Part shown: piece by piece, positions 33,542 through 39,367 of the stretch | Position numbering within the stretch: position 1 is the stretch's first letter | Layout of the letters: each line of letters starts with the position of its first letter | Origin: Micromonospora sonchi | GTDB lineage: Bacteria > Actinomycetota > Actinomycetes > Mycobacteriales > Micromonosporaceae | Assembly: GCF_014646235.1 (NCBI RefSeq) | Contig: NZ_BMNB01000006.1 | Span: 124,001-188,000, forward strand | Reading direction: 5' to 3' | DNA: 64,000 bases | Notes under the pieces: generated by a model | What the model saw: the letters and a program-made list of their open reading frames with translations, nothing else | Told to the model about the DNA's origin: nothing | Database searches by the model: none | Position numbers and translations under genes: made by a program

Positions 33542-33781
33542 CGTGGCACTTCCCCTCTGCGGCGGTGCGCCGCTTCCGTAGTCGACGTTAGAAACGGGTG
33601 GCCACTGCGCCCTCGGTCCAGAGGAGGAACGCCGTTCCCCCGACCCGTAGGTGCTTACCCGTGCGGCCAGCCCGCGACGCCTGGGTGACACCGCACCTGG
33701 CATGATCGATTGTGGGCCTTTCGGCTCGCCGGATGTCGTGCACTGTTAACCTGTCGTCCGTTGCGCAGGCAGGAGACAGCG

Positions 33782-34609
33782 GTGACCTCTGGCGTGGGGG
33801 CGTTGTGGTCGCACCGCAACTCGTTGCGCATCCTGGTCCGGCGCGATCTCGCGGTGAAGTACCAGCAGTCGGCGCTGGGCTACTTCTGGTCGCTGATCGA
33901 GCCGCTGGGGATGGGGGCCATCTACTGGTTCGTCTTCGGCGTGCTCTACTCCCGCGACACCAACCGCCACCTGGGCGATGCCGCCGGGTCGTACCCGCTG
34001 TTCCTGATCACCGGGATCTTCGCCTGGATGTGGACCAGCTCGGCGCTGAGCGAGGCGACCAACGCGCTGACCGGCCAGTCCCGGCTGATCACCACCATGA
34101 ACCTGCCCCGGCAGGTGTTCCCGATCGGCCGGGTCGCCGGCCGCTTCGCCGAGTACGCCGCCGGTGTGCCGATCCTGGCCGCCATCGCGATCTTCTACGC
34201 CGCCCACGGCCGGATCGAGCCGGGCTGGTCGCTGCTGGCCCTGCCGCTCGCGGTGCTGGTTCAGGCCACCCTGCTGATCGGAGTCGCGCTGCTGCTGTCG
34301 GCGTGCAACGTCCTGATGCGGGACGTGGAGCGGTTCATGCGCCTGGTGATCCGGGTGCTGTTCTACGCCACGCCGATCATCTATCCACTGGGCCTGGTCC
34401 GCAGCTCGGGGCTGCCCGAGTGGCTCAAGGTGGGCTACGAACTCAACCCGTTGGTCGGCATCTTCCAACTGCACCACGCCGTGTGGTACCCGGACGAGTT
34501 TCCGGCCGCCCGGATGCTCGTCACCACCATCGGCATCAGCGTGCTGGTGCTCGTCGCCGGCTGGTGGGCGTTCCGCCGGCTCGAACCCGCCGTGCTCAAG
34601 GAACTCTGA
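33782..34609 (+). CDS. Wzm/TagG-type polysaccharide ABC exporter permease
   Basis: 275 residues, about six membrane helices (ABC-2 family). Family features are RILVRRDLAVKYQQSALGYFWSLIEPL... near the N-terminus and NVLMRDVERFMRLVIRVLFYATPIIYPL near the C-terminus. It exports undecaprenyl-linked glycans or teichoic-acid-like polymers with the ATPase that follows (TGATG overlap). First gene of a four-gene overlapping operon. The GTG at 33782 has AGGAG eight bases upstream. Confidence 0.92.
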   Translation: MTSGVGALWSHRNSLRILVRRDLAVKYQQSALGYFWSLIEPLGMGAIYWFVFGVLYSRDTNRHLGDAAGSYPLFLITGIFAWMWTSSALSEATNALTGQSRLITTMNLPRQVFPIGRVAGRFAEYAAGVPILAAIAIFYAAHGRIEPGWSLLALPLAVLVQATLLIGVALLLSACNVLMRDVERFMRLVIRVLFYATPIIYPLGLVRSSGLPEWLKVGYELNPLVGIFQLHHAVWYPDEFPAARMLVTTIGISVLVLVAGWWAFRRLEPAVLKEL

Positions 34610-35355
34610 TGGCCGACGCGATCATCGAGGCCGAGGGGATCGGCATCCGGTTCGTCCGCAACCGTCGCCGGCAGTTGCGGCTGCGGGAGGTGGTCATCCA
34701 CCGCGGCCGGCGGGGCGGTGCCGAGGGGCAGTTCTGGCCGCTGCGGGACGTCAGTTTCTCGATCGCGGCCGGCGAGACCGTCGGGGTCGTCGGCCGCAAC
34801 GGCACCGGCAAGAGCACCCTGCTGCGGCTGATCGCCGGGGTGCTGATCCCCGACGAGGGGCGGATCCGGGTCTCCGGCGCCGTCGCCCCGCTGCTGGAAC
34901 TCTCCGCCGGCTTCTCCAGCGACCTGACCGGGCGGGAGAACCTCTACCTGGTGGGCGGCCTGCACGGGCTGTCGTCGGCGTACCTGAAGCGGCACTTCGA
35001 CGAGATCGTGTCGTTCGCCGGCGAGCAGGTCGAGCAGGCGATCGACACCTCGGTACGGCACTACTCGTCCGGCATGAAAGTCCGGCTCGGCTTTGCGATC
35101 ATCTCCCACCTGCCGCACCCGATCCTGTTGATGGACGAAGTGACGGCGGTTGGGGATGCGGAGTTCCGCGCGAAGTGCTACACGACCATCGACCGTCTGC
35201 TCGGGGAGGGGCGCACTTTGGTGCTGGTCTCACACAACGAAAACGATCTGATCCGATTCTGCCGTCGAGGGCTCTACCTCGACGCGGGCCGGCTGAGCGT
35301 CGACGGCACGATCGCCGAGGCGCTGGCCGCGTACGACGACGCGGTCACCCGGTGA
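34609..35355 (+). CDS. Wzt/TagH-type polysaccharide ABC exporter ATPase
   Basis: 248 residues. Walker A is GRNGTGKST (residues 62-70), the signature is HYSSGMKVRLGFA, Walker B is ILLMDEVTAVGD and the H-loop is LVSHN. The YSSGM signature and ALSAGF-type block (LLELSAGFSSDLTGRENLYL) identify the Wzt/TagH family. It lacks the C-terminal carbohydrate-recognition domain of Wzt proteins that cap-select their O-antigen, so it should be a TagH-like exporter. Overlaps its neighbours by 1 and 4 bases. Confidence 0.93.
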   Translation: MADAIIEAEGIGIRFVRNRRRQLRLREVVIHRGRRGGAEGQFWPLRDVSFSIAAGETVGVVGRNGTGKSTLLRLIAGVLIPDEGRIRVSGAVAPLLELSAGFSSDLTGRENLYLVGGLHGLSSAYLKRHFDEIVSFAGEQVEQAIDTSVRHYSSGMKVRLGFAIISHLPHPILLMDEVTAVGDAEFRAKCYTTIDRLLGEGRTLVLVSHNENDLIRFCRRGLYLDAGRLSVDGTIAEALAAYDDAVTR

Positions 35356-37172
35356 CCCTCGCGATCGTGCTCGCCGCCGGGGCGCCGGCCGCGAGCCTGC
35401 CGACGGGTGCCGGTGAGTCGCTGGCCGACCGGCTGGCCGCCCAGTGGCGCCGGGCGGGGGTGTCCGAGGTGCGGGTCGCCGCCGACCTCGACGAGGTGGC
35501 CGACCTGGCCGGCCAGGCCGACGGACCGGTGCTGGTCAGCGGCGCCGACCTGGTCGCGCACACCGCAGTGCTGCGGCACCTGCTGACCAGCCCGGTGGGT
35601 GCGACCGTGGCGCTGGTGCTCACCGACCCGCCCGCCGGCGGCCGGACGGCGGTACGCGAGGAGCGTGGCCAGGTGGTCGACGCCGGTCCGGCCGAGCGGC
35701 TGGCGGGCGCGACCACCGGCATCTTCGGGGGCGCGTTGCGGGTCCGCCGCGACGACGTGCCGGCGCTGGTCGCCGCCGCCCGTACCGCTGCGGCTGGGGA
35801 ACTGTCGACCGGCTCCGGCTCGACCGGGCCCGCCGTGGACCGGGTCTTCGCGGGGCTCACCGGGCAGGGGACGCTGGTCCTCGCCCATCGGGTACGCCTG
35901 CTGGTCGCGCACCGGGTCGACGACGCGGCCGGACTGGCCGGTGCGGAGGCGGCGATCGCCGCCGTGCCCGAGGACCGGGCCGAACTTCGGCTGTCGGTGA
36001 AGGAGAAGGACGACTTCTTCACCACGTACTTCGTCAGCACCTGGTCGCCGTACGTCACCAAGGCCGCGGCCCGGCTAGGGCTGAGCCCGACCGGCGTCAC
36101 CATGCTGTCGGTGGGGTTCGCGGTGGCCGCGGCGGCGTTCTTCGCCACCGGCGGCCGGCCGGCGCTGGTGACCGGCGCGATCCTGCTCTACCTCGGATTC
36201 GTCCTGGACTGCGTGGACGGTCAACTGGCCCGGTACACCCGCAACTTCAGCGCCTGGGGCGGCTGGCTGGACACCATGGCCGACCGGGCCAAGGAGTACC
36301 TGGTCTACGCCGGCCTGGGTTGGGGTGCCACCGCGGCCGGGTTCCGGTACGGCTGGGCGCTGGCGATCGCCGCGATGGCGTTGCAAACCGTGCGGCACAT
36401 GACCGACGCCTGGTACGGCGTACTGCACGACGAGGCGGCCCGGCGGCCGAAGGACGTCGGCACCGGCGGCGGGGGCATCGGCGACCGGCTGAACGCCGCG
36501 TCCACGAAGGTGCAGGCCGATGCGGGCTCGGTGTCGTACTGGCTGAAACGGACGGTGGTCTTCCCGATCGGGGAACGGTGGGCGCTGATCGCGCTGGCCG
36601 TGGCGCTGTTCGACCAGCGGGTCGCCCTGCTGGCGGTGCTGACCTGGGGGGTGCTGGCGTTCGCGTACACCGGTGCGCTGCGTACGCTGCGGGCGCGCTG
36701 GATGGGGGTGTCGGTGCTGGACACGGTCGACGCGACCCTGCACCGCGACGACGGCCCGCTGGCCGCGCGGCTGCCGCTGTCGCGCCGTCCGGGGTCGCTG
36801 GACTGGCTCGTGCCGGCCGCGCTGCGGGCGGCGGAGTACCTGTTCGCGATCGCGGCCGGGGTGATCGGCGGCGCGCCGGCCTGGCTGATCTTCGGGTACC
36901 TCTTCGTGCTCACGCTGCACCACTACGACCTGGTGGCCCGGCTGGAGAAACGGCAGCCCGCCCCGCCGTTGCACGCCGCCACCCTCGGTTGGGAGGGCCG
37001 GTCGATGCTGCTGGCATTGGCGGCGATCGCCGGATTTGTGAACATCGCCCTGGTTACACTCGGTGTCTACCTCCTGGTGCTCTTCGTGGTGAGCGTCGTG
37101 CTGGCCTGGTTCGTCCGGCCGACCCGGGCCGCGCGGGTGCCGGCGGGTGCGGGAGGCCGCGCGACGATCTGA
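35352..37172 (+). CDS. CDP-alcohol phosphotransferase fused to a degenerate nucleotidyltransferase-like domain
   Basis: 606 residues. The N-terminal ~210 residues look like a Rossmann nucleotidyltransferase (VTLAIVLAAGAPAASLPTG) but lack the GxGTRLxP...K pyrophosphorylase motif. Then VKEKDDFFTTYFVSTWSPYV leads into a membrane CDP-alcohol phosphotransferase domain. Its full signature D-x2-D-G-x2-A-R-x8-G-x3-D-x3-D is at about residues 286-308 (DCVDGQLAR ... GWLDTMAD). About eight helices follow to the C-terminus. It would transfer a phospho-alcohol from CDP-alcohol to an acceptor. The alcohol is unknown. The layout resembles archaeal IPCT/DIPPS fusions. GTGA overlap with the ATPase gene. Confidence 0.88.
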   Translation: MTLAIVLAAGAPAASLPTGAGESLADRLAAQWRRAGVSEVRVAADLDEVADLAGQADGPVLVSGADLVAHTAVLRHLLTSPVGATVALVLTDPPAGGRTAVREERGQVVDAGPAERLAGATTGIFGGALRVRRDDVPALVAAARTAAAGELSTGSGSTGPAVDRVFAGLTGQGTLVLAHRVRLLVAHRVDDAAGLAGAEAAIAAVPEDRAELRLSVKEKDDFFTTYFVSTWSPYVTKAAARLGLSPTGVTMLSVGFAVAAAAFFATGGRPALVTGAILLYLGFVLDCVDGQLARYTRNFSAWGGWLDTMADRAKEYLVYAGLGWGATAAGFRYGWALAIAAMALQTVRHMTDAWYGVLHDEAARRPKDVGTGGGGIGDRLNAASTKVQADAGSVSYWLKRTVVFPIGERWALIALAVALFDQRVALLAVLTWGVLAFAYTGALRTLRARWMGVSVLDTVDATLHRDDGPLAARLPLSRRPGSLDWLVPAALRAAEYLFAIAAGVIGGAPAWLIFGYLFVLTLHHYDLVARLEKRQPAPPLHAATLGWEGRSMLLALAAIAGFVNIALVTLGVYLLVLFVVSVVLAWFVRPTRAARVPAGAGGRATI

Positions 37173-37189
37173 CGGGGGCCGGGACGACG

Positions 37190-39367
37190 ATGACGCTGAT
37201 CAGCTTCGTCGTCCCGGCCTTTCGCGTGCAGGGCTACCTGCGGGAATGCCTGGACTCGATCCTCGGTCAGCCGGTCACCGGGATCGAGGTGATCGGCGTC
37301 GACGACGGCTCGCCCGACGCCAGCGGCGACATCCTCGACGAGTACGCGGCCCGCGACGACCGGGTACGGGTGGTCCGGCTGGACCGCAACGTCGGGCTCG
37401 GCCCGGCCCGCAACGCCGGCCTGGATCAGGCCGTCGGCGAGTACGTCTGGTTCGTCGACGGTGACGACTGGCTCGCCCGGGACTGTCTCACCGAGGTCGC
37501 CGCCAGACTGCGCGACACCCGACCCGACGTGCTGCTGGTCGACCACGTCCGGGCGTACTGGGACAACACGGCCACCCGCAGCGCGATGGAGCAGGTCTTT
37601 CCGGAGCCGCCGGGCCCGGGCACGTTCCGACTGGTCGACCGGCCGGAGACGCTGGAACTGCTGCACACCGCGTGGAACCGGTTGGTCCGCCGGCAGTTCC
37701 TGGCCGACATCGGGCTGCGCTTCGCCCCCGGCTGGTACGAGGACGTGTCGTTCAGCTATCCGCTGCTGCTGGCCGCCGACCGGATCGGCGTGCTCCACGT
37801 GGTCTGCGTGCACTACCGGCAGCGCCGCGCGGGGGCGATCACCAGGACCCGGGGTGAGCGGCACTTCGACGTGTTCGAGCAGTGGCACCGGGTGTTCCGG
37901 GAGGTCGACCGGCTCGGCGCCGGGCAACTGCGGTCGGCGGTCTTCGAGCGGATGATGTGGCACTACCTGACCGTGCTCGGCAACGGCGCCCGGATCGCCC
38001 CCGAACTGCGGCCGGCCTTCTTCGCCCGGGTGACGATCGAGCACGCCCGGCTCCGGCCACCCGGTGGGCACCGGATACCCGATGGCGTCGAAGGGCTCAA
38101 ACACCGGCTGGTGGCGGCCGGTCGATGGCGTACGTTCAGCGCCCTGCGCGCCACCAACCAGGTGGGCGAGATCGCCCGCCGGGTCGGGCGCCGGATGCTC
38201 CCGCCGGCCGGGATCGCCGCGCGGGCGGCGCGGGACCTCACGCTGCGCGGGTACCACCGGGCGGAGCTGTGCCGCCCGCTCGACGAGAACCTCGCGCTGT
38301 ACGCGGCCTACTGGTACCGCGGCTACGCCTGCAACCCGGCGGCGATCTACGAGGCGGCCCGGCGGCTGGCGCCGCAGATCCGGGGCGTGTGGATCGTCCG
38401 CCGCGACCGGGTGCACACCCTGCCCGAGGGAGTCGAGTACGTGGTGGCCGGGACGGCCGCGTACCACCGGATGCTGGCTCGGGCACGGTGGCTGATCAAC
38501 AACGTCAACTTCCCGGACGGGGTGGCCAAGCGCCCGGGCTCGGTGCACGTGCAGACCCATCACGGCACGCCGGTCAAGGTGATGGGGCTGGACCAGCAGC
38601 GGTACCCGCTGGGCGCGGTCGGGATGGACTTCGCCGGGCTGCTGCGTCGGGTGGACCGGTGGGACTACAGCGTCACCTCGAACAGCTTCTCCACCCAGAT
38701 GTGGGAACGTGCCTATCCGGCCGCGTACACCACCTTGGAGGTGGGGTACCCGCGCAACGACCGGTTGGTCACCGCCACCACGGAGGAGGTGCTGCGGTTG
38801 CGCACCACGCTCGGCGCCGGCCTCGGCGAGCAGGTGGTGCTGTACGCCCCGACGCACCGCGAGCACCTGCCCCGGTACCGGCCGCCCTTCGATCCGGAAC
38901 GACTGCTCGACGCGCTCGGCCCGTCCGGACTGCTGCTGGTCCGCAGCCACTACTTCGAGGACGCGGACCGGCGGGTGCGGCACCCGGCCAACCGGGACCG
39001 GATCGTGGACGTCACCGACCATCCCCGGGTCGAAGACCTCTACCTCGCGGCCGACGTGCTGGTCACCGACTACTCCTCGGCGATGTTCGACTACGCCGTC
39101 CTGGACCGGCCGATCGTGGTGTACGCCCCGGACTGGGACGCGTACCGGCTGACCCGGGGCGTCTATTTCGACATCACCGCCGAGGCGCCCGGCCCGGTGG
39201 CGCGTACCTTCGCCGGGCTGCTCGACGTGTTCGGCCGGGGGGACGCGTACTCGTCCGCCGCCGACCAGACACGGGCGCGCTTCCGGGAGCGGTTCTGCGC
39301 GCTCGAGGACGGGCACGCCGCCGAGCGGGTGGTCGGCCGGGTCTTCCTCGGCGAGCCGAGCGCCTGA
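37190..39367 (+). CDS. GT2 glycosyltransferase fused to TagF-like CDP-glycerol glycerophosphotransferase
   Basis: 725 residues. The N-terminal GT-A domain (1-~270) starts LISFVVPAFRVQGYLRECL, with VDDGSPD and the metal-site FVDGDDW. The C-terminal GT-B part (~370-720) is TagF/TarF-like: QTHHGTPVKVMG, YAPTHREHLPRYRPP and DVLVTDYSSAMFDYAVLDRP. The two activities would add a sugar and polymerise glycerol- or other alditol-phosphate units on a lipid-linked chain for export by the ABC pair upstream. It starts 18 bases after the previous gene. No tagD-type gene is in the window. Confidence 0.92.
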   Translation: MTLISFVVPAFRVQGYLRECLDSILGQPVTGIEVIGVDDGSPDASGDILDEYAARDDRVRVVRLDRNVGLGPARNAGLDQAVGEYVWFVDGDDWLARDCLTEVAARLRDTRPDVLLVDHVRAYWDNTATRSAMEQVFPEPPGPGTFRLVDRPETLELLHTAWNRLVRRQFLADIGLRFAPGWYEDVSFSYPLLLAADRIGVLHVVCVHYRQRRAGAITRTRGERHFDVFEQWHRVFREVDRLGAGQLRSAVFERMMWHYLTVLGNGARIAPELRPAFFARVTIEHARLRPPGGHRIPDGVEGLKHRLVAAGRWRTFSALRATNQVGEIARRVGRRMLPPAGIAARAARDLTLRGYHRAELCRPLDENLALYAAYWYRGYACNPAAIYEAARRLAPQIRGVWIVRRDRVHTLPEGVEYVVAGTAAYHRMLARARWLINNVNFPDGVAKRPGSVHVQTHHGTPVKVMGLDQQRYPLGAVGMDFAGLLRRVDRWDYSVTSNSFSTQMWERAYPAAYTTLEVGYPRNDRLVTATTEEVLRLRTTLGAGLGEQVVLYAPTHREHLPRYRPPFDPERLLDALGPSGLLLVRSHYFEDADRRVRHPANRDRIVDVTDHPRVEDLYLAADVLVTDYSSAMFDYAVLDRPIVVYAPDWDAYRLTRGVYFDITAEAPGPVARTFAGLLDVFGRGDAYSSAADQTRARFRERFCALEDGHAAERVVGRVFLGEPSA

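Follow-up and report, generated by a model that had tools for sequence, protein, structure and literature searches.

Micromonospora sonchi is a soil actinomycete with a draft genome of 6.59 Mb. In a 64,000-nucleotide stretch of this genome (contig NZ_BMNB01000006.1, positions 124,001 to 188,000; hereafter the window), four plus-strand genes at 33782-39367 encode the permease (Wzm) and ATPase (Wzt) of an ATP-binding cassette (ABC) exporter, a 606-residue protein of the DUF5941 family and a fusion of a family 2 glycosyltransferase with a TagF-like polymerase (GT2-TagF). This operon is real and conserved, and it varies on transferase and teichoic-acid-like systems that are already known. As judged from its sequence and predicted structure, the 606-residue protein is a membrane enzyme of three parts, namely an N-terminal domain seemingly without catalytic residues, an intact cytidine diphosphate (CDP)-alcohol phosphotransferase core closest to AF2299 of Archaeoglobus fulgidus, and DUF5941. 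Our preferred reading, to which we give about an even chance, is that the operon builds and exports a surface polymer containing an alditol phosphate, most likely glycerol phosphate.

The core matched the Pfam family CDP-OH_P_transf with 30.6 bits (cut-off 22) and carries the complete class I transferase signature D-x2-D-G-x2-A-R-x8-G-x3-D-x3-D (D286, D289, G290, A293, R294, G303, D307, and D311). Of 560 relatives in named genomes, the best 80 were retained; the structure alignments A2 and A3 consist of 41 sequences, namely the window protein and proteins from 40 of these 80 loci, and exclude the sequences of the genome group g7 described below. All eight signature residues were invariant in 41 of 41 sequences (alignment A2). 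The AlphaFold2 model built from 41 sequences reached a predicted local distance difference test score (pLDDT) of 89.4, about 93 over residues 1 to 210, and a predicted template modeling score (pTM) of 0.88. When the whole protein was compared with solved structures by Foldseek, IPCT-DIPPS and AF2299 were the top matches, and the core profile matched AF2299 best among PDB entries (55.5 bits, compared to 38.7 for PIPS and 25.1 for CHPT1). The arginines that bind inositol phosphate in RsPIPS could not be placed confidently, since beyond transmembrane helix 3 (TM3) the PIPS-like protein of this genome no longer aligns coherently.

In the model, residues 1 to 210 adopt a nucleotidyltransferase fold that superposes on PntC (Z 18.3, root mean square deviation [rmsd] 2.7, 198 aligned residues) and on GlmU (Z 17.0). 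The window protein has no G-x-G-x-R loop, and the glycine-rich loop is not kept across the 41 relatives. With motif positions matched by eye, without a structural alignment, an arginine was found at the presumed loop position in 6 of 41 sequences, the presumed C-terminal metal aspartate was replaced by arginine in 34 of 41, and the other likely metal aspartate was D in 32, N in 7, and E in 2. We assume that these positions, and the G-x-G-x-R, lysine, and aspartate motifs, have catalytic roles; by these counts the catalytic loop, the lysine, and the second metal aspartate are apparently gone. Additionally, alignment A1 left only three invariant positions in residues 1 to 210. The N-terminal domain of the family thus seems to retain the fold of a nucleotidyltransferase but no longer its chemistry.

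An earlier note on this DNA, made from the letters alone, had described the protein as a degenerate nucleotidyltransferase domain fused to an intact CDP-alcohol transferase site, in a layout resembling archaeal enzymes. Both domains hold up, the degeneracy through the superposition and the counts by eye, and the intact site through its invariance; the archaeal likeness is supported because, among solved structures, the full-length layouts that come nearest are those of AF2299 and IPCT-DIPPS. The note had added that the N-terminal domain keeps only LAAG and lacks the pyrophosphorylase residues. LAAG is indeed present and the loop missing in the window protein, but LAAG itself varies, being LATT, LATS, or LATP in Streptosporangiaceae rows (family names of relatives' loci are presumed here and below) and AILTG in the g7 genomes. 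The C-terminal DUF5941 domain had been overlooked.

DUF5941 (PF19365) was matched with 46.5 bits by Pfam (cut-off 27). The orthologue from Micromonospora trifolii (L042) contains DUF5941 in full length; its transmembrane part, folded alone, gave a model (pLDDT 87.9, pTM 0.89) in which DUF5941 forms six long helices. This model aligned with four entries of CHPT1/CEPT1, the eukaryotic choline/ethanolamine phosphotransferases (8ul9, 9uet, 8ero, and 8gyw), over 301 to 305 residues spanning model residues 2 to 432 (Z 18.4 to 19.5, rmsd 3.5 to 4.0), whereas alignments with AF2299, DIPPS, and PIPS covered 177 to 196 residues and ended by model residue 240. The alignment with AF2299 (4q7c; 195 residues, rmsd 2.4, Z 19.2) shows that the model contains the six-TM core fold. 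PGP and PS synthases aligned over 148 to 163 residues (Z 7.2 to 10.2), and rows from outside the transferase family went no higher than Z 7.5. The window model itself aligned with 8ul9 over 310 residues (Z 21.3); this alignment spans model residues 80 to 606, so some of the aligned residues lie within the N-terminal domain.

Passages of PMC10182977 and PMC10156783 report that TM7-10 of CHPT1/CEPT1 resemble TM3-6 of the partner protomer, suggest a descent from a dimer, and describe TM7-10 of CEPT1 as a dimerization unit derived from a second protomer. In our models, DUF5941 is placed like these TM7-10, and it contains no transferase signature; we therefore read it as a second CDP-alcohol transferase unit that is apparently without catalytic activity. 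The idea that the extra helices bind the lipid acceptor directly, prompted by a passage of PMC4634129, is weakened by the role of CEPT1 TM7-10 in dimerization, and the lipid acceptor is kept by analogy only.

The reading of DUF5941 as a dead unit rests on predicted structure, and its sequence suggests the same. The DUF5941 motif WLVPxxLRxxEY lines up with WLDxxxDRxKEY in TM3 of the core, with both catalytic aspartates replaced. In a column-shuffle test (2000 shuffles each) that was designed after the motif had been seen, this TM3-like motif was in register with a p of 0.0015 and a score of 15.7, compared to 7.5 for a Wzm control, while TM4 (p 0.0575), TM5 (0.106), TM2 (0.13), and TM6 (0.41) gave higher values. 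Chaining TM3 and TM5 gave a score of 19.1 that none of 500 shuffles equaled (reversed DUF5941, -14.6; Wzm, 5.2). With trimmed profiles, the TM3 motif was also the best match of DUF5941 against the core, and single-sequence alignments reached p ≤0.05 in 14 of 29 cases (window, 0.004).

The domain is found fused, split, and shortened. It is a separate gene in Streptosporangiaceae and in two further lineages (L037 and L038). Missing from the copy in the window is a stretch that forms two helices in the M. trifolii model; two DUF5941 motifs are 18 residues apart in the window, 15 in a Thermoleophilaceae genome, and 67 to 98 in the other 27 of 29 sequences.

We compared the neighborhoods of 12 unnamed loci (L029-L040), the 80 named loci, three loci of the host genome, and the window. 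Among the best 80 of 560 relatives, the closest are Micromonospora proteins with at most 81% identity in the best segment; in 35 of the 80, the gene of the DUF5941 protein is preceded by Wzm and Wzt and followed by TagF. Within 4.5 kb after DUF5941, TagF was found in 49, an intact nucleotidyltransferase (NTPt) in 19, both in none, and neither in 12, some of the latter being cut by contig ends and one (L107) having its NTPt beyond 4.5 kb. Wzm and Wzt matches lie in the same 16- to 19-kb stretch in 11 of the 12 unnamed loci, and GT2 matches are present in the twelfth. The four-gene picture of the earlier note was right, but it had overlooked the fuller operon found in relatives. Eight genomes (g7, inferred to be Streptomyces) have, in this order, transferase core-DUF5941, NTPt, a glycerol-1-phosphate-dehydrogenase-like enzyme (FeADH), a second transferase, GT2, Wzm, and Wzt. 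The same set up to GT2 is found in 19 Streptosporangiaceae loci, mostly without Wzm/Wzt matches in the stretch and with a gene of the type IspD fused to a short-chain dehydrogenase (IspD/SDR) on the flank. NTPt, FeADH, and the second transferase adjoin DUF5941 in Streptosporangiaceae and in other lineages.

DUF5941 and NTPt also co-occur across genomes. In a phylum sample of 296 genomes (thresholds E 0.001 and 1e-30; NTPt, 1e-30), all 13 genomes with DUF5941, eight of them from one genus, encode NTPt at at least 59% identity, compared to 3 of the 283 others, at 34 to 42% identity. In 150 genomes of the host family (E 1e-30), a match to the 606-residue protein was found together with NTPt in 86 and without it in 7, while 26 had NTPt alone and 31 had neither (Fisher p 2e-10, uncorrected for descent). 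Since NTPt occurs in 26 genomes lacking a match to the other protein, it may have an additional role of its own. Two of these 26 belong to the window's genus (G428 and G441).

According to the earlier note, the CDP-alcohol supplier is missing from the window and a separate cytidylyltransferase must act. A candidate does lie outside the window, on contig C4 of the same genome, where NTPt and FeADH (L129:8097-9874) and a second transferase are grouped together. The C4 proteins correspond to those of the g7 operon for NTPt (67% identity, E 8.5e-102) and FeADH (53%, E 1.8e-114). The closest resemblance of NTPt is to phosphocholine cytidylyltransferase (1jyk, E 1.7e-16). FeADH matched best, among PDB entries, 3ce9, named a glycerol dehydrogenase (E 5e-46), and glycerol-1-phosphate dehydrogenases (E 3e-44); its motifs GIGDAVSN, SGGDHEISHA, and SHGEQVG align with like motifs of 3ce9, and we take the Asp, His, and His in them to be metal ligands. 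The second transferase of the related operons has AF2299 as its best PDB profile match (77.6 bits). In 12 of 12 further loci collected from NTPt matches, NTPt adjoins FeADH, followed by a C4-type transferase in 9. Three loci (L146, L147, and L148) have NTPt and FeADH near a Wzm-like match (46 to 48% identity) without a C4-type transferase.

TagD was rejected as the supplier: the genome has four PF01467 matches, none of them TagD-like, which from their sequences we presume to be one CoaD-like, one NadD-like, and two HldE-like proteins. Two HldE-like kinase/cytidylyltransferase fusions (L132:8237-10096 and L028) thus occur in one actinomycete genome. Two WecG/TagA-family genes were also found (L150 and L151 on contigs C11 and C19; 188.9 and 183.3 bits), and a linkage-unit type enzyme therefore exists in the genome.

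Under our preferred reading, FeADH would reduce dihydroxyacetone phosphate to glycerol phosphate, probably the sn-1 form, from which NTPt would make CDP-glycerol. The DUF5941 protein would then move glycerol phosphate from CDP-glycerol to a lipid-linked membrane acceptor as a primer, GT2-TagF would extend the chain by adding sugar and glycerol phosphate, and Wzm/Wzt would carry it across the membrane. We infer the enantiomer from FeADH, and the lipid acceptor from the CHPT1 plan together with the exporter. The suggestion of the earlier note that the alcohol is not plain glycerol finds no support here: the candidate supplier module has a glycerol-1-phosphate-dehydrogenase-like enzyme, and AF2299 uses CDP-glycerol, as stated in a passage of PMC4634129. 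What is unusual, going by the sequences, may instead be the enantiomer, of the archaeal sn-1 type.

We put forward a wider proposal that is tentative and that we consider somewhat unlikely. Actinomycetes would make CDP-sn-1-glycerol through a glycerol-1-phosphate dehydrogenase and a dedicated cytidylyltransferase, a bacterial CHPT1-like pseudo-dimer, consisting of the transferase core and the dead DUF5941 unit, would use this donor in priming a lipid-attached surface polymer, and DUF5941, with its fused, split, and shortened versions, would represent stages through which the additional unit of the eukaryotic enzymes may have emerged. CDP-sn-1-glycerol, the archaeal-handed form, is considered absent from bacteria, a view that such a pathway would overturn. 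If the readings given here are right, they would give DUF5941 a function class, provide a bacterial case, both fused and split, of the one-chain layout of active and dead transferase used in eukaryotic phosphatidylcholine synthesis, and supply a concrete CDP-glycerol route in a genome that yielded no TagD. One full-text literature search for DUF5941 found no paper, and a search for the five linked product names found none combining four of them. Streptomyces coelicolor locus numbers led to one paper, which was judged unrelated, and passages of papers found for Micromonospora and Actinoplanes do not mention this operon.

Several results weigh against our preferred reading. The 606-residue protein misses the NCBIfam equivalog cut-offs for PIPS (45 bits, cut-off 170), archaetidylinositol-phosphate synthase (57.6, cut-off 180), and IPCT-DIPPS (31.4, cut-off 580), and FeADH misses that for glycerol-1-phosphate dehydrogenase (257, cut-off 413). 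The C4 transferase (L129:9858-10574) shares only 24% identity with the corresponding g7 protein and may therefore be a different enzyme. The 7 and 26 of 150 family genomes having one of the two proteins without the other also count here, and because the operon neighbors differ, being TagF or NTPt, the products may differ as well. The proposed catalytic Glu and His of the CHPT1/CEPT1 extended signature G-E-x2-D-H-x2-D, given in a passage of PMC10182977, are absent (G303-G304 and D307-T308 instead). Furthermore, an attempt to prove from sequence that DUF5941 derives from an inactive transferase did not succeed: hhalign comparisons with transferases gave E 0.23 and 0.16, or 0.14 and 0.18 with trimmed profiles, none significant (E 0.14 to 0.23; unrelated membrane protein, 0.74). 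This lack of profile similarity would fit a DUF5941 that is an unrelated membrane accessory domain, resembling CHPT1/CEPT1 TM7-10 through chance helical packing, as would the six long helices of the full domain in the model, compared to four in CHPT1 at that place, and the TM5 segment, on which the unrelated Wzm profile beats DUF5941 (5.3 versus 3.4). We nevertheless judge chance packing to be quite unlikely, since the four CHPT1/CEPT1 entries align 105 to 128 more residues than AF2299, DIPPS, and PIPS at an rmsd of 3.5 to 4.0, far above unrelated rows, and since the TM3-like motif is in register and scores about twice the Wzm control. It is very improbable that the N-terminal domain still activates the alcohol phosphate, making the protein bifunctional like IPCT-DIPPS. 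Its fold and one likely metal-site aspartate are mostly kept, but the loop, lysine, and second aspartate matched by eye are seemingly gone, hardly any position is invariant, and the same genomes carry the gene for an intact NTPt.

As to the product, the enzyme might make a small soluble or phospholipid compound, such as a glycerophosphoinositol-like solute or a phosphatidylinositol-phosphate-like lipid, the exporter being only loosely linked. AF2299 reportedly yields a glycerophosphoinositol-like solute, the nearest characterized relatives of the 606-residue protein (AF2299, DIPPS, and PIPS) make no polymers, and NTPt, FeADH, and the second transferase stand on C4 without an exporter. We regard this as unlikely in view of the Wzm, Wzt, and GT2 matches in the unnamed loci and of TagF following in 49 of the best 80 of 560 relatives; moreover, the other enzymes seen here with a TM7-10-like unit use a lipid acceptor. 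A polymer of ribitol or another alditol, with CDP-ribitol from an IspD/SDR fusion on contig C14 feeding TagF, has two points in its favor that likewise speak against glycerol. The IspD part (167 bits) is fused to a short-chain dehydrogenase, and the fusion lies next to a Wzm, a Wzt, and a weak PF04464 protein of that locus. In addition, 19 of the 21 loci L100-L120, all except L103 (Glycomyces) and L116 (Actinoplanes), have a match to the fusion on the flank of the DUF5941 operon. Yet that locus has an exporter and a PF04464 protein of its own, DUF5941 tracks NTPt, and TagF scores 191 bits against the TarF (glycerol) equivalog, missing the cut-off of 550, compared to 64 against TarL (ribitol), also below cut-off; we thus find ribitol rather improbable here. 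The C14 locus (L130:6912-12020), where Wzm, Wzt, the IspD/SDR fusion, and the PF04464 protein stand apart from the operon of the window, probably serves to make a ribitol-type polymer, and a further weak PF04464 protein lies on contig C2 (L131:9503-11125).

In the operon of the window, genes 1 to 3 overlap by one and four bases, and a 17-base gap precedes GT2-TagF. Pfam confirmed each gene of the set named by the earlier note, whose description was right, although its coordinates 35352-39367 cover the last two genes only. Wzm matched ABC2_membrane with 51 bits (run on 33779-34609; the start codon was picked by reading the sequence). Wzt matched ABC_tran with 73 bits, scored 157 bits against the NCBIfam teichoic-acid export ATPase, under the cut-off of 538, and, as the note had said, lacks a C-terminal carbohydrate-binding domain, none being among the 16 Pfam families listed. 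GT2-TagF matched Glycos_transf_2 (126 bits) and Glyphos_transf (392 bits) and contains the motifs DGDD, HHGTP, RSHY, and TDYSS, of which HHGTP and RSHY presumably carry the two active-site histidines of TagF.

Table 1. Position in the window of the operon genes and of the parts of the 606-residue protein
Feature	Coordinates	Strand	Basis
Wzm/TagG-like ABC exporter permease, 275 aa, GTG start	33782..34609	+	PF01061
Wzt/TagH-like ABC exporter ATPase, 248 aa	34609..35355	+	PF00005
DUF5941-family protein, 606 aa: degenerate nucleotidyltransferase domain, CDP-alcohol phosphotransferase core, and DUF5941	35352..37172	+	Pfam, AlphaFold2
Residues 1-210, predicted nucleotidyltransferase fold	35352..35981	+	AlphaFold2 model, PntC/GlmU superposition, residue counts
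Residues 217-451, catalytic CDP-alcohol phosphotransferase core	36000..36704	+	Pfam, model, structure and profile comparison
Residues 286-311, CDP-alcohol transferase signature	36207..36284	+	Sequence motif
Residues 454-593, DUF5941 domain	36711..37130	+	PF19365; superposition on CHPT1/CEPT1
Site of ~55 in-frame missing codons relative to L041 (close Micromonospora relative)	~36770..36795	+	Alignment
GT2-TagF fusion, 725 aa	37190..39367	+	PF00535, PF04464

Among known systems, IPCT-DIPPS (4mnd), the top Foldseek match, is likewise a fusion of nucleotidyltransferase and transferase, but its nucleotidyltransferase is active, unlike our reading of the N-terminal domain here. AF2299 (4o6m, 4o6n, and 4q7c), the best profile match, shares with the 606-residue protein a cytidylyltransferase-like N-terminal domain on a six-TM core but has no DUF5941 unit; a passage of PMC4634129 describes this N-terminal domain and a small hydrophilic pocket that takes CDP-glycerol. 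CHPT1/CEPT1 combine catalytic TM1-6 and dead TM7-10 in one chain (passages of PMC10182977 and PMC10156783), as do our predicted models of the 606-residue protein. The latter differs in its nucleotidyltransferase domain and in lacking the Glu and His of the extended signature, and DUF5941 differs in being a separate gene in some bacteria and in having six helices in the M. trifolii model.

At the level of the gene cluster, a passage of PMC13118837 (2026) describes a syntenic Streptomyces region with a CDP-alcohol phosphatidyltransferase, GT2, a nucleotidyltransferase, tagGH, and araM, linked to teichoic acid. This gene set matches the fuller g7 operon, whereas in the window's genome the set is split and the DUF5941 gene is joined to TagF; that passage neither names DUF5941 nor proposes a mechanism. 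Glycosyltransferase-TagF fusions are described in a passage of PMC5974469 as capsule polymerases of Gram-negative bacteria that make poly(oligosaccharide phosphate) or poly(glycosylpolyol phosphate). Like GT2-TagF, these hold a glycosyltransferase and TagF in one chain, but the glycerol-using capsule polymerases carry a C-terminal GT-B domain, whereas the fusion in the window carries an N-terminal GT2.

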